A stretch of DNA of 64,000 nucleotides, taken from a virus. The notes under the pieces were generated by a model. The model did not search any database. It worked only from the letters and a program-made list of their open reading frames with translations, and was not told the DNA's origin. Positions within the stretch are counted from its first letter, which is position 1, and each line of letters starts with the position of its first letter. Positions 25,090 to 63,344 of this stretch are shown one piece after another. The DNA is taken from positions 27,342 through 91,341 of the IMG/VR virus record IMGVR_UViG_3300044615_000294. The stretch is one strand, 5' to 3'. Both the position numbers and the translations under genes were made by a program.

Positions 25090-25109
25090 TCTTCCCCTTA
25101 TTTTTTTAC
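25075..25109. terminator. Bidirectional terminator between convergent blocks
   Basis: AAGGGGAAGA (25075-25084) pairs perfectly with TCTTCCCCTT (25090-25099). It is followed by a T-run on the plus strand (25101-25107) and preceded by an A-run (25072-25076) that gives a U-run to transcripts from the minus strand. It ends both the replication block and the virion block. Confidence 0.85.
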
Positions 25110-31338: not shown

Positions 31339-34300
31339 TTATCTTTTACATTTCATATAATAATCTAGAGCATCCATTATATCTAGATCTGGATTTTTAA
31401 CTTCTTCATTTGCAAACCAATCTTTAAACTCTTTTGAATTTAATACAATGGTTTTATTTTGATTTTCCAAAGTTAAATTATTTTCTTCTTCTTCTTGACT
31501 AAATAAATCTAATTGTTCTCCTGGTCCAGGTTTTTGAGTACCTCTAAGCTCTTCTCTAACTTCCATAAGTAATTTTGGAAACTCTTTACCCCATTTAGTT
31601 TTATCTTGAGTATGTGTAAGAGTAGCATTACCTGTAGCAAGTAATTTAGCAAGGGCATCTGGATTTTGTTCAAAAGAAAGTGTAAGTATATTTTTCATTA
31701 CTCCTGATGAATCTCTATCCCAAGTTGCAGTTGATAAATCTTTAATTTTAGCTCCTAAACTTTTTGCTTGAGCTCCAGTTGCAGTTTTTAATTTTTCAAG
31801 TATCTCTAAATTTTCTTTACTTGCAGGAGCACCTAATAAAACAGCATTTGTAAAAAATATTTTCATAGCTTGGAAAGCACCTTCAGGAGTTCTGAATGTT
31901 TGACCATTAAGCGTTACAGCTCTGTCAGCAAAATTACTTAACTCAGCATTTTCTCCTGTACCAGCATAAATATTGATTTTAATATCAGATCCTGGTAAAT
32001 TAGTACTAGGTTGAGTAGTAATTAGTTTATCAAAATTCTCATTAAATACTATATTAGAAGGTATTGGTCCTGCATTAATAAACATATCTGCCATTTCTTG
32101 ACCTGTATAACCATTAAGATTAGTTCCAGAGTAATCAGATACTAAAAATTCTTTAGTTGGATTTTCTTTAGCATACTCATACAACTTTTTAACACCCTCT
32201 ATAATTTCTTGAGGAGTTTTACTTTTCTTTTTTCCAGGACTAGTTACAGTAGTTATACCCCATGCTTTTCCTGAATCAGACAATCTATTATCCATTTTTT
32301 CACCTTGCTTAACACCAGCAATTCTGTATGCAACTAATGCTGCTCCTCCTGTACCTTTAGAAGGATTTCCATTAATACCAAGTGGATTAGAACCAAATAC
32401 AAATATTTGATTAGGCTGTAAACTTGTTACTTTTCCTGAATAAGTTTTTCTTTCAGTAGGTTGAGTAGTAGGTGCAGTAGCTTTTCTCCAAGTACCGATA
32501 GGTTGACCATCAATTTTTATCTCAGAATAATTATATCCTTTAGCTTCAAGATTTTGATACAATCTTTTTTCACCAGTATTATAACTACTTGAATCTATGT
32601 AAGCTTTATTATCTGTAAGAATAGTAGCTCCAGCTTCTATGGCTTTAATTGCTTCTCTGATAGTTTTATCTTGTTCTCTTTTAACAACGGTTGCATCACC
32701 TCTTAGTCCAGGAACAGATACAAAGATTACATCTGTACCACTATATTTACCAGTATTTGCTAAAGTACCAGCTTGTTCTCTATAGATCTGTGTAGTACTA
32801 CGTTTACCATCTTTACCAACTATACCTTCTCCAAAACCAATAAACTGTGTAGCTATGCTCGCTTTTGTTACAGCTTTAGCATCTTTAACTCCCGCTTGAG
32901 GAATAACTGTAAATCTGTCTTTCTTTTCAAATGTTGGAGTAGTAGATACAAATGCAGCTGATACAAAGTTTTTAAAGATTCTATTTCTAGGATTCATACT
33001 TATATTAAATACTCTATCCATGTATCTTTGTTTATCTTCAAAGTTTTGGTTGTTAAAGTCTACTGCTGCATTATTCATAATTGCAACATAGTCTTCAAAT
33101 GGTAAGATTTCATTAAAACCAAATCTACTATACCCTACTCCATTCTGATATACTGCAACAAGTGGTAGTGCACGGAACATGTCACTGATGTACTTATTTT
33201 GTATTGGATCAGCTACTTTAGATACATTAGGATCAGCTAGATCTTTAATGTTTTGATAGTATTGTTCTGCCACATTTCCTTTACTTAATAATCTAGAATT
33301 ATTTAAAGTAAGAATTTTCTGACCATCTTTAACTTCTGGAATAGATAGTTGTGATAATAAACTATATTTATCTTTTAACTCAGGATGTTGATTTATAATA
33401 TCAAAAATATCTTCTGCAAATGAGTATCCTGTATTTTGGAAGAACACATCTTTTGTAAAGTATTTAGCTAAAATATCTGAAGGAATGTTTAACAAATCTT
33501 TTTCAGATTGTACATACCCCACCATATAATTTTGGAACACAGAATTAACCATGTTATTTTTTATATCAGATATGAATGTTTCAGTATCACCAAATCTTTT
33601 TACTATTTGAAAACTATTAGTCTTTATAAGACTTATAATGATATCACTTATGTCTTTTGAATTTCTTAATGGAAACACTGGCTGTACTAAATCCTGAACA
33701 ATTTGATTGTCAAAAAATGTAGATAAGATAGATTCTTTTCTTAAAGCTTTTACTACTTTACCTTCTACTCTTGAGTCATTTTCAATTTCATCAAGAAGTA
33801 CATTTCTATTAATTACTTGCTGTAAAGTTTTAGATATTGCAGTATCCGGATTAGATAATCTCATTAACTCTTGGTATCCTGAGAACTGTTTTTCTAATTC
33901 TAATACATGAAGTAATGTAGCAATTTGATGATCTCTAAATTTAGGGTCATTTGGATTATCAAGAATTTTATTTAAATCTTCAATATTAAATTGCCCATCT
34001 TCATTTAAGATGTTACCTTTTTCTATAAGAGCGTCTAATGCTTTTTGTTCTTCTCTAACTAACTTTGGTGCTTCTTTTGAATCAACAATAAATTTTGATA
34101 ACACTCTAGCTGCTGCAACTTCTTTATCAGGAATTTTTATTTCTAGACCACTTTGACTAATTTTAGTTCTAGGTATACCGCTGTTGTCAGTAATAAGATC
34201 TGAGTAAGAACTTTTTAAAAGTCTTTGTTCTTTTGCATACTCCCTTACTAATGGTTGTGACAAAAACTTAATTGCATATTCTCTTGTAACTCCTGACTTA

Positions 34301-37300
34301 AATAACATAGCCATTAACCCAATCATTTCTTCATTACCTTGGATAAAGAATATCCATGCATTTTTCTCAACATCCACAGAACCATTCATTAATTGTGAAT
34401 ATAGTTCTGATATTAAATCTCCATCTACTGTAGTAATATCTGAAAGTGATATTCTACCATCTTTAGTTTTATTATGAGGTAATAATATTCTTGATTCTCT
34501 TCCTTTTTGTTTTTTATAGGTGTATGTTTTAGGCATTGCTGCACCTAAAGTATTTAGTACCGGGTGTAAAGCATTGTAGATAGCTACAATACCCAATACC
34601 CTCTTACCAATCATATTTGCTTCATGCTTGTGTAAGTTGTATAATGGCTCTAATACTCTAGTGGGGCTAATAGCTTTTTCACCTTTTGTGTTTAGTCTTC
34701 TATCTTCACCATGATAGTTTTTAAATCTATCATAGTCTGTTACCTTGTCTTCTAATTTATCTGCCAATTCATCTTTCAAAAGATATGTAGCATTTGGTCT
34801 AACAAGAGATGCATAGTTCTCTGGTAAACTAAGTATGTTAGATAGGCTAGTAATTAGTTTATTCTCTAAAGCTGCCTTTTGAGTACTCAGTAATCTAGCA
34901 GTCATTTGCTTTCCTTCTTCTGTATCTTTATTTTGATCAATAAGATTTTGAAGTCTCTCATTAGACATTGCTGATTCTATAAACTTTCCAGATTTATCCA
35001 ATGATGGCATAAATGTAGTAAGTTTATCAACGTCAAAGTCAGCTCCTGACTTAGCAACTATTTCTGATGGTGGTATAATAATTGGACCAGCAGCCTCATC
35101 TAAGAACTCATATACTTCCATATATTCCATAGAGTTAAGGCCTTGCACAGGAATCCTAACAGCAATCATGGTAATTGCTTTTCTATTAGCTCCATCATTT
35201 GCATTTAACCATTCATCATCTTTAATAGCCTGGTTTAGCCTTTCTCTTGTACCAATTTTTTCCCCTTTGTAATCTAAGTTTAAAAGATTAACAAAGTCTC
35301 CCTGAAGAGCAATAGCAACTTTCATTGCTGAAGTTCTATCTTTATCATAGTTATAGAAAGGTAAGTTATTAGTTCCCATGAACTTTCTTACTTGTTCTAC
35401 ATCAGCTTTATCAAATTGAATTTGATTATCCCAGATACCATTAGTCATTGCACTAGATACCTGTACTAATGCTTCACCTTTGATTTTTTGTCTTACTAAT
35501 CTTTTTTCAATTAATGAAACAATAATTTTTTCAATCTCATCTGCTCTTAAATGGAAAGATAAATCTGTTTTCAAAGAGTTATCTGGATTCATATTGATAA
35601 ACTCAATATGGTGTTCTGGGATATTCTTTCTACCCAACTCTCTTTGTACAAGCTCTAAGAAGTTTTTAAAATTTCCAATGTATTTACCATCTTCAAACTT
35701 ATAACCAATCTCATTAAGTAGTTCCATTTTTAAGAACTCACCATATGCATCTACTGCATCTTCATAATCTTTAACTAAAACTTGATTTTTAACTGTAAGT
35801 TCACCATTTCTATATAAGTTAGATAGGATAAGTTTTCTTAACTGAGTAGCAAATACTGTTTTGTTTTTATAAGATACAGGAACTTTAGTAACATCTTTAA
35901 GATACTCAAGGTATACTGTGTTTGGAGTAAACTTAATATCTGTCTTTAATGATTTTTGTTCATCATCATTATAAATTTTATCAGCTACTGCTTTTCCTTT
36001 TTCATTAACCTCAGATGTAACACTACCAACTTTAGAACCAGTCTGGAAAGTAACATACTGAATGTTTTCCTTAATCATTTGCTTATGTAAAGATTCTAAA
36101 TCAGAATTCTTTATCATTGATGGAATAAGAGGAGCTAAGGCAAACTTATGCATTGCCATTACTGGTAGTGATGTATTAGCCAAGTGTCCAAAATTTTGCA
36201 CTTTATATACCGGGAATGCTTCAATAATATCAGAATACTTAACAGGTTCTTTTCTTATTACCTTTACATATAATTGTTCTTGTAAATCACTCCACTGGTT
36301 AGATGCAATTTTAAGATTTCTATAAGCATCAAATGTAATCCATCCTTGACCATCTCCTTCCTCCATTTTTCCATAAGGCTTAAGATCCTGAGCCACACGC
36401 ATTTCTACTTCCTCAGATAGTTTATCAGCTGGAACTTTTCCTTTAAGTCTCTCTGTATAATCTTTTCTTAATTCTCTTTCAATTATAGGAGAATAAACAG
36501 ATTCTCTCACAATATCTTGAATAATGGCAGAATTAAATTTACCTGTGTAAGCAAGAGTTTCTAATCCTTCTGCTTGTGCATAAGATAATTTACCATTCAA
36601 TCCAGTTAAATAATTTCTTATTGACTGATCTGTTCTAATCTTTAATCCACCAGAAGTTCCACCAGAGTTTCTCTTGTGCATCTCTTCTTTTTCATGATTG
36701 TATTGTACAATATCACCATAGAATAAAGTAGCAGTTTCAAAATTTTGTACCCAAGAATTTACTGCATAAGCAGAAATTAAAACTTCTTCAGCTTTCTCTT
36801 CACCAAGATTAAATACAGCTAGTTTATCTAAAAGATCTGGGCTCAAATATTTAGCTTCATTGTAATAGTTTTGTAAATCTTTAACTTGATCAGTAAAATA
36901 TGTAGTAACTTCATCTAAGATCTTTTTATATAGATCTGGATTAGTTTTAATGTAATCTTCAAATCTTACATTAGGATTTGTTACTGCAGCTAATATTTCT
37001 TCTTTAGTATCTTTTGTTAATACATTATCAAATGCAGTAAAGTTTTCACCGGCCATAGTACCATCTGCAAGTTCTCTATTGTATCCAGCATATGTCTTAA
37101 ATAAATCTCTATTTGTTTTAAATTTATTTATTCTTTCTAACTCACCAGCAATGTATGGGATCATGTGATTTTTAACAAGATACTCATATGCATTACCTGT
37201 TGCAAATTTATCTGTGTCTACCCATAATCTTGTATCTTCACCTTTACCAACACCACCTAAAATACCACCTTCTCCATCTATTCTAGCTCCAAAAGATGAT

Positions 37301-40300
37301 GACTTAGATGCATGTCTCATAAACTCTATCATACCACCTTTAAGCATACTGTGTAGTTCTTGTAAGAACTTACCTCTAGCATCTAATGAGGTTGTATTTG
37401 TTCCATCCTCAATTGCTTCTACCTGAGTACCTGAGTTTATAAATAGCTGTAAAGATTTTCCTGTTCTTTTAGCCCAGTTGTATACACCATCTTCTGTATC
37501 ATTTTTATCAAACAAAGTATTGATAATACCAAGTCTAGTAGTAAATGAATTAATTAATGGATTTAAATAACTCATATATTCAAACTCACTACCTGGTGTC
37601 CACGCCTCTGATAAATTTTGCATTTTATTCAGAGCATATGTTATATAACTTATAGTGTGATCATCTATATGTTCAAATACAAGATTTTTTTCTGCATTTA
37701 ATACTGCAAAGTTTGCAGAGTCAAAACCATACTTAGCTTGTAAACCAAGAATTCTATCTATAGCATTCTTTTGTCTTACTACTTTTTCAGAAATAGTACC
37801 TGCACTAAATCCAGAACTTAACTTACCAATTGGATCTAACAAAAATTCATTTATTTCATCTGCTGTTTTTTGTGTTGTCTTTGGATTCTTCATTGCTTGA
37901 TCTATATCATACATATTTCTATAAATATATATTAGACCATACATTTGTTTAGCTCTCTGATTTAGATTCAGTTCATTTTTAATAATTGATAAATCATCTA
38001 AATATAAACCTATTGCTCTTGCAAATTCATAAGCTCTATTAGAATCTAATTTTCCATCTTTACCAAATTCTTCTACAACATCTGCAACTTTTAAGAATGC
38101 AACATTTTCTGCAGTTCTTCCAATGAATTTATTTTCAAGATCACTTTTAAACTTAGATTGAAACTTACGCATTAAGCTCATTGTTTCAATTGAAGCTTTA
38201 GTAACTTCAGCAATGTTATTATCAAATACTGTAGTTTGTAAATAAGTTACTCTTGTTTTTTGAAAGTCTTGCCAGAATGAGGTTAGAGTATTTACTTCAA
38301 ATCTATTTCTCTCATTAATAACAATCTTACCATCTTGAATTGTGTATCCCGGAAGCTTTCTTAGTAACTGTTTGAATTCTGGATAAATTGTTTGTGCAGC
38401 AGTTCTAATATTTTCAAGCATTTTAGATGGATTCTTTTCTCCATTAATAGCCCGAATAGTATTATTCCATGTAGTTGCAAAATCTGCAAGCTCTGGGTAC
38501 CCTAATTCATTAAGTACTACTTTACCGTTTTGCATTTTATGTAAACTGGATAATAAAACAAGAGTCTCTGAACTTGCTAAATCCAATAAAGACTTAGTTT
38601 GAGTATCATCTTTTATACCTAAACTTTCACCTTCAGGAGTATTTGTTTTTGGATTGCTGTTTCCTGTTTGAGATTGTGTAGTTGTATCATCTGCCTCTTC
38701 ATCTACCGCTTCTTTAAACTTTTTGTTTAGGATTTTATAATCACTATTCTCATTATGATATGCAATTACTCCTGACTTTTTATCACCCCAGTTTTTAAGT
38801 GCAGTTTCAAATATTCTTATTTTATTTTCAAGCTTTTCAATTTCTAATGCCTTAGTAGGATCATCTTGTATTTTTTCTAATTCTTCTTTAGCCGTATCTA
38901 ATTTATTTTGAAAATCTACTTTAGCTTCAGCATATATTTTTTCTTTAGCGTTTTCATTTGTAAAGATTCTTATAGTTGCCTCTTTAGTACCAGCTTCTTC
39001 AGAGTATTGATCTGCTCTTAATGAGAAGAAAGAGTCAATACTTTGTGATACAAGATTACTATCCTGTTTATCTAAAGCATCAATTGAAGTTTCAGATATA
39101 TCTTCTATACCTCTATTAAGTTCCTGAAAGTTGAATGTATTAACAAGCGGAGAATATTTATTTAAAAACTTCTGGCTATTCTTTTTATTCTTACTTGCTA
39201 AGTATAACTCATTAAAGAGTTTATCTTTAGTACTTTTAGATTTAAATAGATTATTTAAGAAGTTTAAAATCTTTCTAAATATACTATTTCTTTTAGGTGA
39301 GTTAGCTTTAACACCTTGTTCTTTTGCATAAGTTCTAAATTCTTCTGCAAGATATTCCTCAAGTTGTCTATATGTAGCTTCACTAAATTTAACTTTGGTA
39401 CCATCTAATAGTGTAAAGCTTCCTTTTTGTTTTGCAACTTCATCATATAGTGCCTTTCTTTCAGTTGGATTTAAGAATAACTGAGTAAATCCGTGCCATG
39501 CTTCATGGTATACATCTACTATACTACTTCTCTGACTAATTTGAATTTCACCATATTTATTATTTAACACAGATCCGTATGCAATAAACTTTGCATAAAC
39601 ATCTGAGTTAACTATGTTCACCATTGTCTTGAAGTCAATGAATTTAGAAAGTGGAGAATTGTTCCACCAAGTCTCTGCATTCTTTATATCTTCTGGAGTT
39701 ATATTTTCTAAACCTAAATTTTTACCGGATCTGTACATTTTATCATCATCAAACAAACTACCAAGACCTCCTTTTTCTGGTTCTGGTGTATTTTCAGGCG
39801 CAATAATATTATCTCTTTCTTCTTTTGGTGTTTTAACAACTGGTTCTGTAGCTGTCTCTATTTCAGTATCTTCCACAGAAAGTTCAGAAGGAATGCTAAA
39901 CTTAATATATGTGTTATAAAATCCAGGATCTGTGCTTTCAGATATTTTAATGTTTGCACCATCTAATGTTTCTAATAATGGAATATAGGGTGCATTATAT
40001 TCATCACTAAGTTCTCCTGTTTCTAAATTATAATCTCTATAAGCGTTTCTTGATAAAACATCTACATTATAAGTCATTTTAGCGGGATAAGGTTTACCCT
40101 TTCTACTATCACCTTTTGCATATCTTAAAACATCATATACTAAATCATATTTGTTATTTAGTTCATCATTTAATAAGGTATATGTAGCACCTGTTCCATC
40201 ACTATATGTTTTTTCAGTATACTGAAAAGTAAGTGCGTCTGTTCCAGCATTATAAAGTAATGTGTGTCTTCTTGCTGTCATTGCAGCTTTATCAGAAAGA

Positions 40301-41655: not shown

Positions 41656-41659
41656 CTTC

Positions 41660-44600
41660 TTAACAATCTAAGTCATCTAATAAATTATCTCTTGTATCTT
41701 CTTTTTTAGCTTGATCTTCTAAATCTTGTTGTCTAGAAGCAGCATCTTTGCCATATAATAAATCTGAAACAGTATCTGTAGATTCTTGAGTAACTCCTTC
41801 ACTCTCATCAACTACAGGACCATCTGTTTCTTCTCCACTAAACAATGTAGCTGCTGGTTTAAATTTCTTTTTAAATTCTTCTACACTCATTTCCATTTTA
41901 GTTCTTTTACCTTCTGGTTTAACAGTTATTCTATCTCCGGAAATTTGTGATATAACTGCTGTTTGATTAGCACTTAAAAACTTCCTTCCATTAGCTGTAA
42001 AGATATCACTTTCTGAGTAAACTTGATCACCTTCATTGTAAGTAATTATTTCCCCCTCTTCAGTTTCATCCTGTACTTTTAGAGATTCTTTTCTTGCTTC
42101 TATTAAATTATTTAATTCTGCAATCTGTTCTGCTGAATATTTTAAACTATTCATTGCAAGATCAACCATAAGAAGTTGTAACTCATCAAAGTCTGCTTTT
42201 TCAATTTTAGATTTTAAAGCATTAAACTCTTTTAAATTATTTGTTTCTCCACCTTCTTCCCCTTCTGGGTTTTCATCTTCATAATCTGTGTTTTCTACAT
42301 CATCTAGATTAGGATCAGTGATTATATCCTCAACAGTATTAGATGGTACTGTACCATTAAACTTAGGTGCTGTCTCAGGTATCTCAGCATTAAGCTTATC
42401 ATACATTTCTTGAGTTGGCTCTAAAGGAAATATAGTTTTACCTTTCTTTAATAGAGTTGGAGCACTAGGTCTTTTTGCAGTAAGAATTTTACCAGTTGTT
42501 ATATCTGAAGTAGTTTCAATAGGTATGATAGCTATCTCAGCATCTATACCAAACATATTTTTCAATAGTCTAGCATATACCATTTGTTGATAAGTATTCT
42601 CAATTTGTTTTGCGTAGTTCTTATTTTCAGAATTATTATAACCATTCCATTTGGCTGCCTCTCCTGTTTTAATATCAACAATTGTAAAATTACCTTCTCT
42701 ATCAACAAGAAGTAAGTCAATTTCTCCGGCTACATTTGCATCTTCATCATATACTATAAGACCATTTGCAACAACAATAAAATCACCTGTATCTATATAG
42801 TCTTGTATAGATTGATAAATACCATTTCTTCCATATAAACTATCAAATGCTTCTTGTGAAATTTTATTTAGATCTGGTTGAACTTTTTCACCACTAAAAT
42901 ATTTTTTAGTTAAGTCATCAATTACATTACCTCTATCTCTACCCCACTGGTAAGTAGCTTGTTCTGTAATAAAATTAATTGTTGCATCTCTTAAACCTTC
43001 TAAATCATCTTCTGGAGCTTTTGTTGTTTCAGGTAGTTTAACAAGTTCTTCATTAATCCATTTTTGTTGATTTGGAGTAATTTTATTTGGATTACCATTA
43101 TAAGCAGATCTTTCATTCCACTCTTCAAGTATATTGTTTAACTGTTCTTTAGAAGTTATTTTTTTAAGTCTAATTGCCTCAGTTAAAGCATTAAAGAATG
43201 CGAAGTTTAATCCCATAGTTGTACCACCAGAGATAGAAGAGTTTCTTATATTTTCCTCTGCCTTTCCTAATAACTCATTATAAGTTACTTCTTCTACATC
43301 AGCTTTAGTATCTGTAGAACTTTCCTTACTAGCTCTTTCAGAATCTAATCTTTGTTTTTGTTCTGGAGAAAGTCTATCCCACAGCTTAGGATTTTGTATT
43401 TTAGTATAATCTTCTGTTTCAATTAACTCTACAGTATCCCCTTCTTTTTCATATATTTCAGTTAACTCTTCAATATTTTTAGCTTTCAGTCTATCAAATG
43501 GACTCCAATTTCCTTTTTCATTTTTAATTTCCCATGTAGCAGAACCATCAAGAGAAGTTGTTACTCTAAGTTCACTAGTGTCTCCAGATGAATTAGTTAT
43601 TTTTACAGTTTCTCTTTTAACTGATATACGGCCATTATAATCATTTCTAGATGTAGCATCTGTAGAAGCAGGGGCCCTATTTGATCTAAAGTCATTTACA
43701 AACTTCTCTATAGCTTCATAAGATTTCTCATTAAATCCTGGAAGATTACTTGCTTTTAAAACATCAATAAAATCTTTAACAGATTGTCCTTCACCTATTG
43801 TTAAATTATAAGCAGCTAAAAGAACATCTTTTTTATCATATTCATATTTTTTACCCAAGAACTTTTGAATAACATTTGTTACCCTTCTAAGAATCTTCTG
43901 ACCAATTTTATATCCGGTTGGTAATGCTTCTATTCTTTCTTGTTCTTTCTGTAATTGATCAATTAATGCAAGAGCATTTTGCATTTCAGGTGTAAGAGAT
44001 TTACTAACTCTGCTCTTAACATAAGCTTCTAATATTGAATACTTTTCTTGTAGCTCTTTTAATCTTACCTCATCATTTATAGATTTGTTTTTAGTATTCT
44101 CTATAGCATTGATTTCAAAATTATATTGTTGTAGTACAGATTGAATTTGTTTATCAGTAGCATTCTCTGCTGATATTTTTTTACCATTAGTTAAAGTAAT
44201 CAATGGTGCAGCGGCAGTACCACCAGTTGTTGCAGCTTTTAACTTTTGTTCTTTTATGTACTCGTTAATAAGATCTAAAGCTTGCGGTTCACTTTTAATA
44301 AAGTTTACAAACTTATTTTCTAACTCATCATTAGTAAGGTTGTCTGGAAATAAATATTCATTATTTGGATCATCCCTATAGTCTTCAAATGCTGCTTTAA
44401 GTTGTTCTCTAAGTTCTTCAGGCATGTTTGCAATAGGAGTATCTGGAGTAAGTTCATCTATAGAAACTATACCACCTTCTACAATAACATTAGATGTTGC
44501 TGCTATTGATCCTTCTGCTGCCTCTGCTCTAAGTTGATCATACTTATCCTTAATTGCTTTAACTTCTACTGGATCTGGTTCTTCTCTATATGCAAAAAGT

Positions 44601-48355: not shown

Positions 48356-48365
48356 GCTATATTAA

Positions 48366-50645: not shown

Positions 50646-50678
50646 TGTGTTATAAGTTAAATTAAATTATTTACCTGT

Positions 50679-52181: not shown

Positions 52182-52232
52182 ATATTGTAAATATATTAAA
52201 ATTTTATAAGTTTAATAAACTTAAGAAGTTTA

Positions 52233-54941: not shown

Positions 54942-54946
54942 GTTAG

Positions 54947-57900
54947 TTATTTTATATATTCTACTTTACCACCTGCGGCAACAATCTCTTGAATCTGCTT
55001 AGCTGTTAATGTGTAAACACTTCCTTTTTTATATCTAGAACCTAATTGTCCACCTTTCTTAGTAATTACTTCATTACCTTCAAAACCGATACCTTGAATA
55101 TTTCTTCCAGAGTTTGAAGCAAGCCAACCTCTATCACCCATATTACTTCCAACTACTTCAGCAGAACCAAATCCACCTTGACCAGTATTTGGTGAAGCAG
55201 CATCAGATGATCTATTTTGTTTACGGTATTGATCAAAGTTTTTCTCATTCTTAATTGCATTACCAATTGTACTAGCAATTCCAGTTAAACTACCTTTACC
55301 AGCAAATAGATCTGCACCAAGTTGTTTGGGATTCCAGCTAAATGCTGATTCCTCAACTACTTTACCAATATAATTTGGATCACTAAATTCTGGTTGATCT
55401 ACAGTAATACCATCTTTACCCATAGGGATATAACCACCATAAGCCATATACTCTGGCATATAATCCATCTCCCCACCATACTCTTGTCTTATTACACCAA
55501 ACTGATTACGTGGTGCTTGTTTATTAAAGACATTTTGTTGTGCATCTGCAAATGGATTACCCATCAATCTTGTATTAGATTGAGACATTGCTTCTGGTGT
55601 TGTTGGACCTGAACCAAGTTCAGTAATACCTTGTGTTGCTCCAACTCTAGGACCTTGACCATTTGCCATTGGATCATTTGCAGATGACGCAAAGGCAGCT
55701 TGTGCTGCTTGTTCTTGTGTCATTGGACCAGCTGCAGAACCTAAAGGTTGTGCAACAGGTTGAGATGATGTCATTCCAACAGGACCAAGATTGCTTTGTG
55801 GGGCATTTGAAGCACTTGTATTAGGAACTATATTATTTGGATCCCAAACACTTTTTGGTGATTGAAATGTAACTGGGTTTTGACTTACTGCTTGTGAAGC
55901 ATCTGGTCTATTTAAATATCCTGGAAACGAACTAGAACTTGATGTAGTATTAGGAACACCTTCCTCTTGTTGCTCATCTTCATTTCCATGTCTTCTTTGG
56001 TATCTTCTGTCTTGTCTGTTCCTTTTTCTATCATCAGTAAAATCTCCGGAAACTAATCTACCCTTACTATCTATACCTCTTGCTTCATTACCATCAACAT
56101 TAGTAATAGTCATGCCAGAAACATTTCTACCACTTTTTGGTACAGTTTCATTTATAGCAGAAGGTGTAGTTCCTGGTTGTGTTGCAGTACTTCCCGGTTG
56201 TGTAGCATTAGCTGCTGGTTGACCAGGTGTTCCTGCAGGTTGCCCTGGAGTTCCAGGAGCTCCCATTGCATAGTACTCTCTAACTCTTTTAGTATCAAAT
56301 GGATTATACCATTTACCTCTATCTTTATAAGCAACCTCTCTAATACCTGTTGTTCCTTCAGGTGTTTGCCAATTAACAGGAGAAGAAACTGAACCATAAT
56401 TAAAATCTCTATTGAAACCAAAAAGACCTGGTCTTGATGGAGGAGCAATAAAATTATAACTTCCAGGAGCTTGTTGAGTATTAGTTCCTTGCGTTGTATT
56501 AGTAGTGGTTGTAGTAGGCTGTGTAGTAGTAGGTTGGGCAGTAGTGGTAGTAGGTTGAGTAGCAGTAGGTTGAGTGGTTGTAGATTTATTTAATAAATTT
56601 TGAGTAGCATTCTGTTTCCAACCATCTGCCGCAAATGGATTCATAATATTTGGATCAAGACTTAACTTTTCTCTTTGCTTATTATATCTTGGTTGGAATC
56701 CTGTATTAAATCTATTTTGTGACCATTGTTCAAAACCATCTAGTGCTTTAGGTAAGTATCCCCCTTCTTCATAGATATCATCTCCACCATATATGAATTT
56801 GTATAGATCTGGATTGTCTGAATCTATAAAACCACCTGATTGGAAACCGGGAACTGTTAAACCTAAACTTTTCATTACCTGGTCATTATAATCCCTTAAC
56901 GCAACCTGTGGGTTAAATGCATTCAAAGCTGGATTATATACTTGTTCCGCATAGTCAGGAGCAGCACCCATAGATGAATACTCATTGCCTTCTTTATCCA
57001 TTGATAAATTTGAGTTTTGATTCCTAGCACCTAACTGTTCTTGTTGTTCTGGAGTATAATCTTCAAACTTATTTATATTATTAGCTTTTCTATAATCTTC
57101 GTCTAATAAATAAGAGTAAGGACTTGACGGAAAGTAATCTTGGAAATATGCTGACCCTCTATAAATATTTTTTAAGTCCTCTCCTTGTTTATTCAATATT
57201 AGGTCATTATCCGCATCCTCATAAGGAAGTCCTGTTTTTGGATTTATTCCTTTTAAATTTGAGTAATTATATTGGAGTCCCATTTGGTCTGTAAATGGAG
57301 CCCAAGGTTTATTTGTATCTGGATAATAATATGGAGCGGCAGCTTTGTCAAAATTCAATAGCTCAGGTGTCCAAGTTTCTTTAAAATTGCGTGCATTAGA
57401 ACCCATCCATGCTATATTTGACATAGGCCCTGAATTAGCTTGTAATGGTTGTACTCCAGCATTACTTAACATTTCAGTTTTAGCTTGACCCTTTTTTAAA
57501 TTCTGATAGCTTCCTGGAATTTGATCAGCATATGGATTTACAAAAGGATTAGTTAAAAGTTCAGATGGATCTTGAGATAACATAGTAGATGGAGAGAATA
57601 CCATTCTACCATTAGCATCTACACAGTAACCTTTATTAGCATCATATGTTGCTCCTGGAGGACAGCTTAATTCTTTCTTCTTTCCTGTTGTATTATTTTG
57701 TGTAGCAGTTGATCCTGGTGTATTTGAAGCAACTTCATTTAATGCTTGGTTGTTTACAGTCTTAATAACTTTGTCCCGCATTCTTGCAGGAGTAGAAACC
57801 ATTGAGTATCCAGTATTAAATGGAGAACCTATATTACCACCTCTTTGTGGTAAGAACTTTACTAAGTCTCCAAGTACAGATACATCCCAATCTGCTGTTG

Positions 57901-58852
57901 CTTTTCTTAATCCACCTAAAGCACCAAACTCATAATTAACATCAACACCAGGTATTCCATATGGTGTTCCAAATAAAGCTTTGTTAGCTCTTCTTATTCT
58001 TCTATTACCACCCATTCCTTTTAATTTTTTTATTCCTCCAAATTGAAATTGATTATCTGTACCAGTTGTGGTATCTGTTAATTCATGCCCTAGGGATTCT
58101 CCGTATATATGTAAGTGCTCTAATGGATCATGTGGATCTTGTTGACTCATAACCCCTCCTAGTTGCATATAGTTATTGTAAGCTTCTTCTGCTTGTTTTT
58201 TATACATTGCTTCATTACCTACTTGCTGTACTGATTTAGCAAACATCTTTCCTTTCTGAGTATACTTACCCATAGGATCATTAATACTTCCAGTTGGCGG
58301 TAAATAAAATTCACTGTTTTGAACTTCATCACCTTCTGCAGCTTTTTTTAATTTTCTTATGTGAGATCTAATAAATGATCTTTTGCTAATTGCACCACCT
58401 TTCTTATATGCATTATCATATGGTTCAGCATCCATACCAACATAATATGGCTTTGTTACTTTTGGAAAGATACTGTCACTAGGAAATTGCCCACCATCTT
58501 GTGCTTCTTCTATTTCATCTTCTTGATCTTCTTCTACATATGGAGCTCCTCTATCATATGGTGCTCTTGGATCTACACTTGCAGTCTCTTGCGCTTTATA
58601 TTGTTTATATAATTCATATGTTGTATTTGCAACCTTCTCTCTTTTAACATTATATTTTTCTAAGGCAGAAATAATTTGTTCTGGAAATGATCCAGACTCA
58701 ATTTCATTTTTTATAAAACTTAATATCTCTTTATCAGAATACTGTGGTTCTTGTTCTTCAGTTTTCTTTTCAGTATACTTATTAAGTTTACTAATGAATC
58801 CTGGTTGTTCACCTTCATTTGGTTTGCGGATCCTAACTTTTTTTGTTGCCAT
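54947..58852 (-). CDS. Virion protein with Thr-rich linker and Gly-Gly tags
   Basis: A 1301-aa protein. The basic N-terminus (KKVRIRKPN) precedes an acidic helical region. Short tags with Gly-Gly recur (AQDGGQF, YKKGGAI, MQLGGVM, FQFGGIK, FQSGGFI, EYGGEMD, MAYGGYI). A Cys pair, CPPGATYDANKGYC, is near 393-408. A Thr/Gln/Pro repeat block (about 755-800) is coded by short DNA repeats. The C-terminus is VYTLTAKQIQEIVAAGGKVE, a motif shared with the 1477-aa protein. Probably a cargo or structural protein, with no recognised enzyme. Confidence 0.75.
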   Translation of the reverse strand: MATKKVRIRKPNEGEQPGFISKLNKYTEKKTEEQEPQYSDKEILSFIKNEIESGSFPEQIISALEKYNVKREKVANTTYELYKQYKAQETASVDPRAPYDRGAPYVEEDQEDEIEEAQDGGQFPSDSIFPKVTKPYYVGMDAEPYDNAYKKGGAISKRSFIRSHIRKLKKAAEGDEVQNSEFYLPPTGSINDPMGKYTQKGKMFAKSVQQVGNEAMYKKQAEEAYNNYMQLGGVMSQQDPHDPLEHLHIYGESLGHELTDTTTGTDNQFQFGGIKKLKGMGGNRRIRRANKALFGTPYGIPGVDVNYEFGALGGLRKATADWDVSVLGDLVKFLPQRGGNIGSPFNTGYSMVSTPARMRDKVIKTVNNQALNEVASNTPGSTATQNNTTGKKKELSCPPGATYDANKGYCVDANGRMVFSPSTMLSQDPSELLTNPFVNPYADQIPGSYQNLKKGQAKTEMLSNAGVQPLQANSGPMSNIAWMGSNARNFKETWTPELLNFDKAAAPYYYPDTNKPWAPFTDQMGLQYNYSNLKGINPKTGLPYEDADNDLILNKQGEDLKNIYRGSAYFQDYFPSSPYSYLLDEDYRKANNINKFEDYTPEQQEQLGARNQNSNLSMDKEGNEYSSMGAAPDYAEQVYNPALNAFNPQVALRDYNDQVMKSLGLTVPGFQSGGFIDSDNPDLYKFIYGGDDIYEEGGYLPKALDGFEQWSQNRFNTGFQPRYNKQREKLSLDPNIMNPFAADGWKQNATQNLLNKSTTTQPTATQPTTTTAQPTTTQPTTTTTNTTQGTNTQQAPGSYNFIAPPSRPGLFGFNRDFNYGSVSSPVNWQTPEGTTGIREVAYKDRGKWYNPFDTKRVREYYAMGAPGTPGQPAGTPGQPAANATQPGSTATQPGTTPSAINETVPKSGRNVSGMTITNVDGNEARGIDSKGRLVSGDFTDDRKRNRQDRRYQRRHGNEDEQQEEGVPNTTSSSSSFPGYLNRPDASQAVSQNPVTFQSPKSVWDPNNIVPNTSASNAPQSNLGPVGMTSSQPVAQPLGSAAGPMTQEQAAQAAFASSANDPMANGQGPRVGATQGITELGSGPTTPEAMSQSNTRLMGNPFADAQQNVFNKQAPRNQFGVIRQEYGGEMDYMPEYMAYGGYIPMGKDGITVDQPEFSDPNYIGKVVEESAFSWNPKQLGADLFAGKGSLTGIASTIGNAIKNEKNFDQYRKQNRSSDAASPNTGQGGFGSAEVVGSNMGDRGWLASNSGRNIQGIGFEGNEVITKKGGQLGSRYKKGSVYTLTAKQIQEIVAAGGKVEYIK
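56490..56600 (-). repeat. Short tandem-repeat block coding a Thr/Gln/Pro linker
   Basis: Degenerate repeats of GTAGTAGGTTG-like units inside the 1301-aa gene encode TQPTTTTAQPTTT-type sequence. This is a flexible linker and a likely site of length variation between related phages. Confidence 0.7.
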
Positions 58853-58910
58853 ATTACGCGTTATATATTAAATATACTAAAAATAAATCTATTAGTTAAA
58901 CCTATTAAGT

Positions 58911-61900
58911 TTAATCAATTTCCTCTATTATGTATCCTTGTTTAATAAGTTTATCAATTTCTTTTTTGGTAAGTTCAGATACTATACCACCTTTTGCATA
59001 ACCCATTTGATTATACTTACCAGCATTTCTATAATCTTGCATAAAATCCTCAATGGGTAAAACTTTTGTTTTTGTACCCAATTGTTGTTGAAGTTCTGCT
59101 ACTTTACTTTTTGGTACAAAAATAGAAGGTATTTCTTCAAAATTAATTTTACCAGAAATACCAACTTCATCTGATATATCTGTTCTTGGAATAGTAAATC
59201 TTTCAGCATTTCCTTTTGTAGGATTTATTCCAAACATAACAGGATAATTATCTTGAACTAAAGCTTTTTCAGCATCAGATAAATTTTGCCATTCTGTTAA
59301 TCTTTTATTTTTTAAATCATCATAAAAAGAAATATCTGGACTATAAGGTGACTCAACAAATGATTCTCTACCACCTCTTTCAAACCATTTTGCTAAATCA
59401 TCTTCTACATTAATTTTGTTTTTTCCAGATAAACCAATTGCATAATCTAATGCACCCTGATGCCCTCTTGCCATTGCAGTTGAGATATTTGCATTATTTA
59501 TACCTGCAACTCCTGCACCTAACTCACCTGTTAATGGAATTTTACCTTCTTTAATTAATTCACCAACAGGCAATAATCCTTCATTTTTAATTATACCAGG
59601 TAAAGAGGCAGATGTAGTTCCATGATAATATATAGGTATTCTAGGACTTTCTTGAAGTACAGGATATTTATTTGCCATGTTTTCTAAAAGATCAACACCC
59701 TCATCATATGTTATTGATGATCCCTTAGTTTTAAATGTTTTATAATCAGGTAAAAGTTCATCTGATATAACATATGGCGCATCTTTTGGAACACTCTCTA
59801 AAACTTTAGCTCTTAAATCAACATTATTTATTACAGGAGCTAACTCATCTGTTTTTGTTAAACTTCCAGCAACGTTATCTACAGAAGAAACTACATTAGG
59901 TTCTCTTGTGATAAATTTACCTAAATTAGATATGGCTTCTGGAGCCATAGTGATTCCTCTACCAATACCTTTTACTAAGTTAACGCCAAGTTCTGGTATT
60001 GCTTCTAAGCCAGCATATGTCAGTGGATTGAATGCCATTGCTTCTGTATCAGATACATTAGCCATTTTTTCTCCTGCAAAAACATTGGGTTGTTCTTTGT
60101 AATCTGATCCAGTTGATAATCCAGTATTCTTAGTTAAGTTAGCTATTGCTGCTCCTGGTATATCTATTGGAGCTAAAATTTCAAGAGCACTTAACTTAGA
60201 GTCTCTCATTTCTTTTTGCTCTTTTTTAGTAAGTCCTGGAATATTATATTGAAATGGTTGTCCTGGTAAAAGTGTATTACCAAGTTCTTGTACACCAGCT
60301 AATGATCTTGACCAATAACTAGGTTGTAGTTTAGAACCATATTTAGATTCTGCAACAGCATCTTTTTCTCCTGGTGTTAGTTCATCTACCCACTCACCTC
60401 TTCTTTTAGGATTCCAACCTTCTTTCTTACCAAGTTTATTTACAGCATAATTATTTGTTTTATAATTATACTCACTCATAAAGTTCTGAAGAACATCTTC
60501 TGGAAAATTCTCCATAGTAACTCCTGCAGCTTTATTTAATCCCTTATTCTTTTTTAGATATTGTCTTTTCTTTTCATCTAAGAAAATATCCATTGGATTT
60601 TTATCACGGTATTCTGCTCTGAGTTTACCAATATCTGAACCTTCTCTTCCCGTTGATACTTCAGGCTTATTTACAATTTGAGAATATACATCAGGATTTT
60701 CAGCTAAAAAGTTTGGATCAATTGGTGTATATGTAGATTCTGGAGCTTTTTCATATGAAGTTACAGTTTCATACTCTTTGTCTTTATTCTTATTTTTCCT
60801 TTTTCTTTTTTCTCCACCATTATCCCATCTAGTTAGTGAAGGTACAGAGATATCTTCTACTACATAACCTCCTTTAACATATTTTTGTATTTCATCTTCT
60901 GTAAGATCTAATTCAAAACCATATTTAGCAACTTGAACATCTTCATTGGAATTATTCTTGGCAACATTGTTCATGAAGTGTATAATGCTATCATCATCAT
61001 ATAACCTAAACATTCTGTTCCACATGTTATCCCAATTTCTTTCAGAAGACTTCATAATCTCTCTATACTTATTAAGATCTTTCTTTGTGAATTTTTTTCT
61101 TTTTGTAGAATCAAATACTCCAGCTTCTTGTAACTGTTGTCTAAGTTGAACTAAGTCAGCTCTATTTTCTTGAGGTTCCATATCATGTTGAAGATCAGAT
61201 TCAACACCTGTAACACCTGCTTGTTCTTTATTTATTCTATTAATGAACTCTTCTCTTTCCTTTGGTTTAAGAGGATTAGCTCCTGAGTCTACTCCTACAT
61301 GACCCCACTCATGTGCTGCTATCTGATCAAAACCAGGCCAGTCTCCGGGATCTGTTACATTGTAAGATATAAATTCATTTCCAGTATCTTCATTAGCACT
61401 TACCCAACTAGGACCTTCATCAATATATCTAAAGTCATTTATGTTCATGACAGAACTAATTCTATCTTTTATTTCTTCAGGTGTATATCCTTGTTTCTTT
61501 AAAAGTCTTTTATAGTTTTTAGACTGAGCATATAGCTTATTAAATTCTTGAGCTTTTCTATTTGATTCTGATACATCAAACTTCTGCTGAGAATATTGTT
61601 GATATGCGGGATCTATTTGATAGTTTCCATCTTTGTCCATATAAACAGCTGCTCTTTGACTTGGTCTTGTTTCAAATAGATTAGGAATACATTCTATACC
61701 ATTCCATTCATAACCTATAGGACATGGTTGTTGTGATCCACCAAACTGAGCCATTTTTAAATCATCCTGTAAGGCTGGAGTATATACCATATCATTTAAT
61801 AGATTTACTATGGATTTAGTTCCTTTAGTAACTCCTTTTAAATCTTCAATGTCCGGATCTAATTTACCACCAGAATCTTTTACAGCTTTAAAATAATCTT

Positions 61901-63344
61901 GTAAATCTTTTTCAGTAATAGTTTGATCTGGTCTAAATCCAGCTAATCTTCTAAGTGTCATTACTCTTGCATGGATCTCATTTGGATCTACTATGTCTTC
62001 GTAATTCTTCTTTAGATTTTTATCCCATTCTGGATTTCCTGTATTAATAGCTTTCGGCTCTACAATGTTTTGTTCCACAAGATATCCTTGTGGCTTTTCT
62101 AATGCGCTAGTAAACTTATCTCCAGCTTGAATATCATGTACTCTCTCATGATACTTTGTTGCTTGTATCTGAGCTTCTGGTAGAAACTTATTCAACATTA
62201 TTTGTCTAGTATCTACATCATAGTATCCTGCTTCATTTGGACCTAAGTTTTCATCAAAGATATATGGTACTGATGCTCTAGATCTTTCTAAAGCTTCTGG
62301 ACGAATTTTATCTAAAAGCTTTTGTCCTTCAGGCGTAGGCATTACTCTATTCTGAAACCAATTCTCATAAAATGTACTCGGGTCTTCTATTTTTACACAG
62401 CCTTGAACTGGATCATTATAGAAGCCTTCTGGGCATCCTGATTCTCCACCATCTTTTTGTTTAGGAAAAATTGATGGATTACCAGCTTCTATATATCCTT
62501 CATAGTTTCTAGCTTCACCTTCTGTTGTTGTTGGATTATTATATAAATCTTCTTCAGCTCTTGCATATGCTTCTTCTTCAGATATATCTGGATTTTCTTT
62601 TAGAATTCTATTTAGTTCTGTTTGAAATTCTGATCCTCTTCTATCATAATAGGAAGCCATTGATTCATCAGAAGCCACATATGGATTTGGTCTTAAACCA
62701 ACTGTACCATATGTACTCATTCCTCCAGCTTGATTTTGTAAATGATGCATTAACTCATGCTCATACCACCAAGGGTTATTTACATTTGTAATTGGATCAT
62801 TTGGATTTTGTTTAATAACTCCTAGTCCAGCATCATAACCTGTTTCTTCAGATGAATTTACTACTTCTGGATATACAAAGTTTTTTAATGCATCTGCATA
62901 TCTTGCAGGTAATTGATTGTAAGTTTCTCCCCCTGGTTGATAAGTATACTTGGCTTTAGGATTATAAATACCTCTTGCTCTTTTACCCTTCTTTCTTTTT
63001 TTAAATAATTTGTTTACAGCAAATAATTTATTAGTTGCAGTAATATTACTATTTTGAAATTGCCCTCCTCTTTTAGCTAATGGTGTTTCTGTAACCATAT
63101 TTCCAGGAAACTGATAATCTGCACCTGGAAACATTATTTGTGAGTTACCTAAATTATCAGTACCCATCAATGGTCCTTTTCTTAATGGTGTTCCATCTTT
63201 TTCTTTCATAGTAATATTACCTGAAGGAATAATATTGAATGGATTGTTTACATCAGGAGATGTGCTTCTATAACCATCTGTTGAAAATATTTTTTCATTT
63301 GGACCACCGGGCAAACCCTTAAGCTTTTTTAAAGACCTTTTCAT
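58911..63344 (-). CDS. Multi-domain virion effector: three zincins plus ADP-ribosyltransferase-like domain
   Basis: A 1477-aa mosaic. Zincin 1 is HELMH (196-200) with later GSEFQTE; zincin 2 is HERVH (399-403) with later NEIHARV; zincin 3 is HEWGH (678-682) with later QENRADL, so each has a candidate third ligand Glu. Cys-pair motifs (CPEGFYNDPVQGC near 302, CPIGYEWNGIEC near 538) lie between them. After a Lys/Arg-rich linker (about 840-860) and a hydrophobic region (about 1090-1200), residues about 1235-1440 form an ADP-ribosyltransferase-like domain: YYHGTTSASLPGIIKNEGLL with H1241, a Tyr-rich middle, and EEIPSIFVPKSKV with a candidate catalytic Glu. Such enzymes attach ADP-ribose from NAD to proteins or nucleic acids, like T4 Alt. 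The C-terminus repeats the L-T-x-x-E-I motif. Confidence 0.8.
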   Translation of the reverse strand: MKRSLKKLKGLPGGPNEKIFSTDGYRSTSPDVNNPFNIIPSGNITMKEKDGTPLRKGPLMGTDNLGNSQIMFPGADYQFPGNMVTETPLAKRGGQFQNSNITATNKLFAVNKLFKKRKKGKRARGIYNPKAKYTYQPGGETYNQLPARYADALKNFVYPEVVNSSEETGYDAGLGVIKQNPNDPITNVNNPWWYEHELMHHLQNQAGGMSTYGTVGLRPNPYVASDESMASYYDRRGSEFQTELNRILKENPDISEEEAYARAEEDLYNNPTTTEGEARNYEGYIEAGNPSIFPKQKDGGESGCPEGFYNDPVQGCVKIEDPSTFYENWFQNRVMPTPEGQKLLDKIRPEALERSRASVPYIFDENLGPNEAGYYDVDTRQIMLNKFLPEAQIQATKYHERVHDIQAGDKFTSALEKPQGYLVEQNIVEPKAINTGNPEWDKNLKKNYEDIVDPNEIHARVMTLRRLAGFRPDQTITEKDLQDYFKAVKDSGGKLDPDIEDLKGVTKGTKSIVNLLNDMVYTPALQDDLKMAQFGGSQQPCPIGYEWNGIECIPNLFETRPSQRAAVYMDKDGNYQIDPAYQQYSQQKFDVSESNRKAQEFNKLYAQSKNYKRLLKKQGYTPEEIKDRISSVMNINDFRYIDEGPSWVSANEDTGNEFISYNVTDPGDWPGFDQIAAHEWGHVGVDSGANPLKPKEREEFINRINKEQAGVTGVESDLQHDMEPQENRADLVQLRQQLQEAGVFDSTKRKKFTKKDLNKYREIMKSSERNWDNMWNRMFRLYDDDSIIHFMNNVAKNNSNEDVQVAKYGFELDLTEDEIQKYVKGGYVVEDISVPSLTRWDNGGEKRKRKNKNKDKEYETVTSYEKAPESTYTPIDPNFLAENPDVYSQIVNKPEVSTGREGSDIGKLRAEYRDKNPMDIFLDEKKRQYLKKNKGLNKAAGVTMENFPEDVLQNFMSEYNYKTNNYAVNKLGKKEGWNPKRRGEWVDELTPGEKDAVAESKYGSKLQPSYWSRSLAGVQELGNTLLPGQPFQYNIPGLTKKEQKEMRDSKLSALEILAPIDIPGAAIANLTKNTGLSTGSDYKEQPNVFAGEKMANVSDTEAMAFNPLTYAGLEAIPELGVNLVKGIGRGITMAPEAISNLGKFITREPNVVSSVDNVAGSLTKTDELAPVINNVDLRAKVLESVPKDAPYVISDELLPDYKTFKTKGSSITYDEGVDLLENMANKYPVLQESPRIPIYYHGTTSASLPGIIKNEGLLPVGELIKEGKIPLTGELGAGVAGINNANISTAMARGHQGALDYAIGLSGKNKINVEDDLAKWFERGGRESFVESPYSPDISFYDDLKNKRLTEWQNLSDAEKALVQDNYPVMFGINPTKGNAERFTIPRTDISDEVGISGKINFEEIPSIFVPKSKVAELQQQLGTKTKVLPIEDFMQDYRNAGKYNQMGYAKGGIVSELTKKEIDKLIKQGYIIEEID

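Follow-up and report, generated by a model that had tools for sequence, protein, structure and literature searches.

Which ADP-ribose enzymes does a phage carry into its host, and to what end? This question is raised by 64,000 nucleotides of viral DNA from the IMG/VR record IMGVR_UViG_3300044615_000294 (hereafter the window: positions 27342-91341, that is the end, of the 91341-base record), in which eight consecutive large genes lie on the minus strand (25106-63344 of the window). A sequence-only reading had noted two giant open frames, of 3438 and 1477 residues, both of which are found as described (31339-41655 and 58911-63344, minus strand), and had proposed that the first, an RNA polymerase protein, ends in modules that remove ADP-ribose, and that the second holds an ADP-ribosyltransferase (ART), so that a writer and an eraser would enter the cell as a pair. 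Our analysis upholds the erasers and gives little credit to the pair. What we favour, with somewhat more confidence than doubt, is that a packaged and injected polymerase carries an exchangeable slot for effectors of early infection, whose likely job is the removal of ADP-ribose as an anti-defence measure. The analysis also gave an unplanned finding, which is its most novel part: a pattern of cysteines at the ends of the polymerase proteins.

Exchangeable modules on a predicted virion RNA polymerase

The polymerase block comprises three proteins:

41660-48355, minus strand: P0003, RNA polymerase-associated protein upstream of P0001, 2231 residues, similar to crAss001 gp47
31339-41655, minus strand: P0001, predicted catalytic protein of the virion RNA polymerase, 3438 residues, with a C-terminal module slot; DFDVDK at 2206, homologous to phi14:2 g066 and crAss001 gp50
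25106-31333, minus strand: P0004, polymerase-block protein downstream of P0001, 2075 residues, LysM at 1753-1792, role assigned from position only

P0001 is homologous to g066, the catalytic RNA polymerase protein of Cellulophaga phage phi14:2 (expectation value, E, 7e-23), and to crAss001 gp50 (E 7e-14), and P0003 is homologous to crAss001 gp47 (E 1e-8); because of these homologies and the DFDVDK motif, the phage of the window is placed by its sequence among the crAss-like phages. P0004 has no match in a comparison set of crAss001 and phi14:2 proteins that lacks phi14:2 g065. Both g066 and g070 of phi14:2, the latter a relative of the 1477-residue protein (P0002), are annotated from virion tandem mass spectrometry (MS/MS), and gp50 is reported from crAss001 virions by mass spectrometry (PMC10172136). 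The earlier placement of both giant proteins in the virion is thus supported through their homologues, and packaging in the window phage may be expected by extension from them.

The C-terminal part of P0001 (residues 2930-3438) consists of three modules and a constant tail:

32467-32868, minus strand: SLOG-like module, residues 2930-3063, named after the label of the sequence-only reading; recurs in 8 of 38 related open reading frames (ORFs)
32014-32466, minus strand: macrodomain module (A1S_2505 family), residues 3064-3214; NCBIfam above cut-off, phrog_2072, structural model
31579-31950, minus strand: NADAR domain, residues 3236-3359; Pfam PF08719 above cut-off, active-site columns conserved
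31342-31530, minus strand: constant tail at the polymerase C-terminus (residues 3376-3438, last residues YYMKCKR), common to L011, L015 and L016 behind different modules

Both of the predicted ADP-ribose erasers are supported. The NADAR domain scores 42.8 bits against Pfam PF08719 (E 8.3e-11, cut-off 35.1), and its closest solved structure is YbiA (PDB 2b3w, E 2.7e-6). In an alignment of 14 phage sequences, including that of the window, E40, K47 and H130 (alignment positions) are invariant and W137 is kept in at least 90%; by comparison with published NADARs (PMC11543638, PMC11125620) these columns appear active-site-like, matching two first-helix residues (Glu and Lys), a last-strand His and the Trp. 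According to the same papers phage NADARs carry the His. The DarT1-linked type has an Asp, and it is the phage type that is found in the window, which in this respect differs from the DarT1-NADAR systems.

The macro module matches family A1S_2505 of NCBIfam with 57.2 bits, over the cut-off of 45. Structure prediction, which the sequence-only reading had suggested as a check on the modules of both giant proteins, was run for it with 12 sequences and gave an AlphaFold model with a predicted local distance difference test score (pLDDT) of 88. In the VIA comparison the best Z was 12.1, to TARG1 (4j5q; root-mean-square deviation 2.9 over 132 residues), while the DarG proteins of M. tuberculosis and of T. 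aquaticus gave 10.7 and 10.6, respectively; in Foldseek against PDB the top rows were macrodomains at modest E (best 1.3e-3), and among viral models the best were proteins of cr50_1 and cr116_1. A macrodomain fold is thereby confirmed at the level of the model, so that the window phage shares with DarT1-NADAR and DarTG the NADAR and the TARG1/DarG-type macrodomain folds. The SLOG-like module is a real recurring unit (8 of 38 related ORFs, near-duplicates included); Pfam cpYpsA matches in L021 and L036, considered as backing for its name, are located elsewhere in those tails and lend it no support. In another relative, a stretch upstream of the macro module (L009:9719-10100) resembles, by eye in the alignment, a second and divergent NADAR.

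Across the same 38 ORFs NADAR occurs in 21 tails, macro in 12 and the SLOG-like module in 8, and all three together in none. Scanning 16 of the 31 distinct tails, 8 of them also against PHROGs, revealed further modules: ART-PolyVal, an AlkB-like 2OG-Fe(II) oxygenase, a superfamily 1 (SF1) helicase, cpYpsA and DUF7831. The NADAR of cr126_1 and the macro module of cr112_1 lie near the N-terminus of the protein at the polymerase position. In Kolpuevirus 'frurule', isolated on Bacteroides cellulosilyticus, tblastn places a match to the macro module within the polymerase gene. Judging from these comparisons, P0001 and P0002 are both built of exchangeable cassettes, each protein swapping independently; P0001 unites unlike activities in one polypeptide (polymerase, macro and NADAR), and P0002 combines three HExxH motifs with an ART-like module.

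In the reading that we favour, the slot lies between the polymerase core and the constant C-terminal tail and is occupied here by the SLOG-like module, the macrodomain and NADAR; because the polymerase would be packaged and injected, its modules would arrive together with the first transcription machinery. Their most likely job would be the removal or breakdown of ADP-ribose adducts and signals of host defences during the first transcription of the entering DNA, the candidate targets being DarT-type DNA marks and second messengers derived from nicotinamide adenine dinucleotide (NAD), rather than a mark that this virion itself has written. The ART-like module of P0002, if it is an ART, would be a separate swap-in effector. 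In agreement with a hydrolytic role, a NADAR from an E. coli phage hydrolyses guanosine-ADP-ribose in vitro (PMC11125620).

A number of observations weigh against this reading. The same E. coli phage NADAR gave cells no rescue from DarT1 (PMC11125620), and guanine-ADP-ribose in DNA may therefore not be the target. The macro variant of the window aligns no Lys at the TK position of the relatives L007 and L038, which we take to be the catalytic lysine of the TARG1/DarG type, and catalysis by this macrodomain is on that account uncertain. In addition, phi14:2 g066 has only 2180 residues, 1258 fewer than P0001, and crAss001 gp50 has no Pfam match to an ADP-ribose module at E up to 0.01; since these are the homologues detected in virions, the packaging of P0001 together with its extra modules, their enzymatic activity and their target are put forward for the window phage as what we infer. 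A further possibility, to which we give about a fifth of the weight, is that the macrodomain and NADAR process metabolites early in infection (riboflavin intermediates, NAD caps or RNA-repair by-products) and have no part in defence. YbiA-type NADAR does act on riboflavin intermediates (PMC11543638), and the best NCBIfam match of the window's NADAR stretch is a riboflavin intermediates N-glycosidase, under its cut-off; however, exchange with ART, AlkB-like and helicase modules resembles arms-race cargo, and a pathway enzyme has no need of an injected polymerase as its carrier.

The 1477-residue protein and the proposed pair

P0002 has the following parts, with a constant N-terminus at residues 1-141:

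58911-63344, minus strand: P0002, cassette protein of 1477 residues with constant N-terminus, exchangeable modules and C-terminal tag; residues 603-797 similar to phi14:2 g070
62745-62759, minus strand: zincin-like motif HELMH, residues 196-200
62136-62150, minus strand: zincin-like motif HERVH, residues 399-403, within a DUF6782-like stretch (E 4.9e-5, below the Pfam cut-off)
61299-61313, minus strand: zincin-like motif HEWGH, residues 678-682, in the stretch 603-797 similar to phi14:2 g070
60849-60905, minus strand: internal tag copy LTEDEIQKYVKGGYVVEDI, residues 814-832
59064-59648, minus strand: core of the ART-like module, residues 1233-1427, with H1241 and, as candidates for the catalytic Glu, residue 1393 or 1403/1404; identified by motif only
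58917-58973, minus strand: C-terminal tag LTKKEIDKLIKQGYIIEEI, residues 1458-1476; L003, L004, L006 and L053 have comparable termini that follow other modules

The presence of the three HExxH motifs varies among relatives, and phi14:2 g070 has two HEFxH motifs. Zincin peptidases are a common theme of polyvalent proteins. The tag, of the form LTxxEIxx(Y/L)xxxGYxxE(E/D)I, stands between modules and at the end of P0002 and is also found in P0010 and L053 of the family; it is perhaps a packaging or cleavage signal. As a separate observation, non-polymerase virion proteins contain paired cysteines in a CP(E/I/P)G...(G/E)xxC-like setting (residues 304/316 and 541/552 of 58911-63344, residues 397/410 of 54947-58852).

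In respect to the ART-like module, the HGT at residues 1241-1243 noted earlier is present, within YHGT at 1240-1243, and corresponds to the HG[TS] strand-1 motif of H-Y-E ARTs. The pattern YHGT...I...GL, written after the match had been seen, occurs once in the five giant proteins against 0.0005 expected from shuffles, and the core has a ratio of nonsynonymous to synonymous substitution rates (dN/dS) of 0.18 against L003, the sole relative found, as for a coding sequence under purifying selection. On the layout of H-Y-E enzymes as we understand it, Glu1393 (DEVGISGKI) is presumably a better catalytic candidate than EEIPSIF, the earlier proposal, and this suggests Glu1393 as the preferred residue.

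No family, structure or database match joins this motif. Neither Pfam nor NCBIfam gave an ART family at E up to 10, PDB gave no ART by sequence or by profile, and tblastn of phages and plasmids together with contig searches of viral and genome collections revealed no tie to a known ART; in profile-profile comparison with four ART-PolyVal domains the YHGT word alone was in common. The predicted structure, from 2 sequences, has a pLDDT of 33 and is useless, so that the suggested check was run here with no gain. Degenerate DNA patterns returned, besides the known sibling, just L046, L047 and L048, all unrelated. Weak matches to the ART-like query in G002, G029, G004 and G005 proved to be the C-terminal tag with flanking stretches and not the whole module: they begin at query residue 210 in G029 (whose locus was read), 239 in G004 and 242 in G005. 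We hold an ART-like fold of residues 1233-1427 to be moderately probable, and the module to be a candidate ART whose identity is not established; the earlier designation as a writer finds no match to a known ART in any library or search.

The distribution of the modules was compared in 36 phage records; the records of L019, L028, L031, L032 and L034 and the pattern matches L046-L048 were left out. These records were found via similarity to the same proteins and some may be fragments, so that the fractions are not natural frequencies. The ART-like module occurs in 2 of 36 (the window and G001) and NADAR in 18 (16 over the cut-off), and the two occur together in the window only. G001, the sibling phage, with an ART-like module 91% identical to that of the window, has no NADAR: its polymerase gene is complete in L016 (4207 residues), and the tail shares its final 50 residues with the window and holds a SLOG-like module, but neither macro nor NADAR. 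G002 and G004 have neither the ART-like module nor NADAR; the G002 homologue of the 1477-residue protein has 705 residues and lacks the ART-like module, and G004 (L006, P0010 residues 898-1008) has a VanY peptidase (Pfam E 7.8e-21) where the window has the ART-like module.

A recognised ART is found elsewhere. ART-PolyVal occurs in 4 of the 36 records (3 lineages, 2 records over the cut-off, G032 and G034 being near-identical), always in one open frame with NADAR; in single-protein scans L007 reaches 40.4 bits against a cut-off of 31.2, and L040 (26.2) and L041 (21.0) fall below it. In cr116_1, ART-PolyVal (49.6 bits) and macro (101 bits) share one protein of 2507 residues. As ART-PolyVal shares a frame with NADAR or macro (L007, cr116_1), a recognised writer and eraser do share a polypeptide in some relatives (ART with NADAR clearly in one, weakly in two more lineages), and a virion with writer plus eraser may exist elsewhere in this phage group. 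For the window itself, the proposal that the virion delivers a matched writer (P0002) and eraser (polymerase tail), acting on the same targets or in self-protection, is very improbable: one phage does encode both module kinds, the ART-like core is under selection, and all four ART-PolyVal records have NADAR in the same frame, but the ART identity of the P0002 module is unproven, the combination is not conserved in G001, G002 or G004, and the four-of-four overlap comes from records partly chosen by NADAR similarity, with two of four passing the ART-PolyVal cut-off.

Cysteines at the facing ends of the polymerase proteins

In the window, the cysteines of the polymerase block are these:

41663-41665, minus strand: the sole cysteine of P0003, its last residue
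41641-41643, minus strand: Cys5 of P0001, N-terminal junction cysteine
31348-31350, minus strand: Cys3436 of P0001, C-terminal junction cysteine, third from the end; these are the only two cysteines of P0001
31322-31324, minus strand: the sole cysteine of P0004, residue 4

The same arrangement is seen in environmental relatives. In 31 records (near-duplicates L024 and L043 omitted, L019, L028, L031, L032 and L034 outside the count; relatives not independent), a cysteine faces the neighbour from both sides at 48 of 50 junctions, from one side at none and from neither at 2 (L029, L044). The last 10 residues of the upstream protein and the first 8 of the downstream one were considered, windows set after the pattern was seen; the chain was extended downstream up to the first protein of at least 650 residues without a cysteine near its end, the following gene being uncounted. 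By a related count, 28 of 30 ORFs have a cysteine within their last 8 residues, again with L029 and L044 as the misses; L038, open at its 3' end, and near-duplicates stand outside this count. Inside the polymerase blocks of the environmental records cysteine is nearly absent, with 16 among 164784 residues (0.00010 per residue). The value is 0.0043 for 109 further ORFs on these stretches, which are mechanical ATG-to-stop frames of at least 250 residues, some maybe spurious. Of these background ORFs 2 have an N-terminal and 4 a C-terminal cysteine; Fisher tests of junctions against background give 1e-35 and 2e-33, to be read with the relatedness of the records and the after-the-fact choice of windows.

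The first protein, ahead of the polymerase, has no N-terminal cysteine, and the last proteins have no C-terminal one, partly by construction of the chain ends and with some running off the contig piece (L013, L014, L033). Where the first protein, recognised by homology to first proteins, is fused to the polymerase (L017, L018, L033, L041), no cysteine is found at the former junction; L018 lacks the exact DFDxD pattern. Conversely, extra genes within the block (L013, 655 residues; L023, 859; L027, 307; L040, 304) carry cysteines at both ends.

Named phages were tallied apart, with gene ends as annotated. In phi14:2, g067 has Cys -1, g066 Cys 3 and -2, and g065 Cys 3, that is four cysteines in 5398 residues, and all three proteins are annotated from virion MS/MS. 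In crAss001 the positions are -3 for gp47, 5, -1079 and -9 for gp50, and 5 for gp49; in DAC17, -3 in the first protein, 5, -997, -973, -594 and -1 in the second, and 4 and 619 in the third. The catalytic proteins of crAss001 and phi14:2, homologous to P0001 and detected in virions, thus show the same terminal pattern. Since the first subunit is encoded on the other strand in crAss001 and DAC17, it is protein order and not gene adjacency that matters, and a gene-overlap or codon-level cause of the junction cysteines is rejected.

Over 20 junctions of named phages, 15 are two-sided (two each in phi14:2, crAss001 and DAC17; one each in frurule, cr126_1, cr112_1, cr130_1, cr131_1, cr50_1, cr7_1, cr108_1 and cr116_1), one is one-sided (cr116_1, 2507 to 833 residues), two are empty (cr131_1, cr108_1), and two, in crAss002 and C0526BW15 of the p-crAss genus, have both cysteines only on the assumption that translation starts further downstream than annotated, at an ATG that gives MSC. 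The annotated polymerase starts of the last two (L091 16074, L093 15774) may be too far upstream. The one-sided and empty junctions fall where the catalytic motif of the polymerase is broken, as in cr108_1 (AGSD / DIDKM); such breaks probably reflect interruptions of intron type rather than true protein termini. Such breaks at or near the motif were observed in cr108_1 (L094 21824-22115), cr116_1 (L055 12662-13503) and cr131_1 (L059 4779-5574); in the latter two the gap holds an ORF whose annotation points to similarity with gp17 of Salmonella phage PVPSE1, and is likely an intron that carries a gene. Internal cysteines are present too in cr7_1, cr130_1, cr131_1, cr116_1, cr126_1, frurule, crAss002 and C0526BW15, and the near-absence inside is not universal.

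Because of the depletion of cysteine and the one cysteine at each facing end, we propose a single disulfide per junction, which probably links each polymerase protein to the next. By a slight preference, then, the crAss-like virion RNA polymerase would be a disulfide-stapled train of giant proteins, two to four in number and often nearly devoid of internal cysteine. One cysteine would sit at every terminus with a neighbour opposite: in the first protein at the C-terminus only, in middle ones at both ends, in the last at the N-terminus only. Oxidised in the virion, the proteins would form one chain, which would pass the tail in a set order and take exchangeable effector modules (such as macro, NADAR and ART) along, and the reducing cytoplasm of the host would uncouple it; the train would keep order and stoichiometry, fusion of genes would dispense with the junction cysteines, and a split or inserted piece would have them at both ends. 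Inter-subunit disulfides are reported elsewhere in the crAss001 particle (PMC10172136). In C0526BW15 (L093) and cr108_1 (L094) the annotation places thioredoxin genes, which could bear on disulfide opening, no more than a few kb from those of the polymerase.

A cysteine near a terminus can serve several roles, such as a packaging tag, a homodimer bond, a metal site or a redox switch; we regard such another role as the less probable explanation, with perhaps three chances in ten. It gains from L041, which starts with Cys2 and has no upstream partner, from L029 and L044, which have no cysteine, and from the one-sided junction of cr116_1 at its annotated ends, the disulfide being itself what we infer. 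Against it stand first subunits with only a C-terminal and last subunits with only an N-terminal cysteine, the pairing of facing cysteines at 48 of 50 environmental junctions, none of which is one-sided, and the lack of a cysteine at the former junction of fused subunits; moreover, one cysteine per end fits a disulfide and not a metal site.

Known systems and significance

Among the literature matches listed, none describes a cysteine-train mechanism by title or abstract start, and the structure paper of the phi14:2 polymerase (PDB 6vr4) could mention it. The nearest precedent is the N4-like virion RNA polymerase, likewise a giant injected protein without cysteine, a lack explained by its passage through the tail and the oxidising periplasm (PMC3715699, PMC3915230); that polymerase is one protein, whereas here two (fused) to four (split) proteins have cysteines at their facing ends.

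The module slot has relatives as well. Polyvalent proteins are large, injected and multidomain, and include an ART fused to an N4-like virion RNA polymerase; the available text (PMC5512222) names no NADAR, SLOG, macro domain or crAss, and the slot described here is on a multi-protein crAss-like polymerase. Viral NAD+-ADPr networks include SLOG-Macro-NADAR combinations, for which packaging in virions and a use against ADP-ribose signals are predicted (PMC9503650); outside RNA-virus polyproteins these versions are typically standalone, and crAss is not mentioned in the part available, while those of the window are fused to a virion polymerase and swapped. Virion-packaged ARTs (2017) and Macro/NADAR proteins (2022) had been proposed before; what is new is the setting, a swap slot on a crAss-like virion polymerase, for which no paper was found, as judged by title and abstract start.

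If the train is real, it would account for the ordered ejection of several giant proteins, in equal numbers, through one narrow tail. If the slot reading is correct, crAss-like phages, which are reported to outnumber other viruses in the human gut (PMC10172136), would import interchangeable ADP-ribose, DNA-repair and helicase modules on the polymerase itself, ahead of all phage gene expression, an early counter-defence that would be testable in cultured Bacteroides and Cellulophaga phages.

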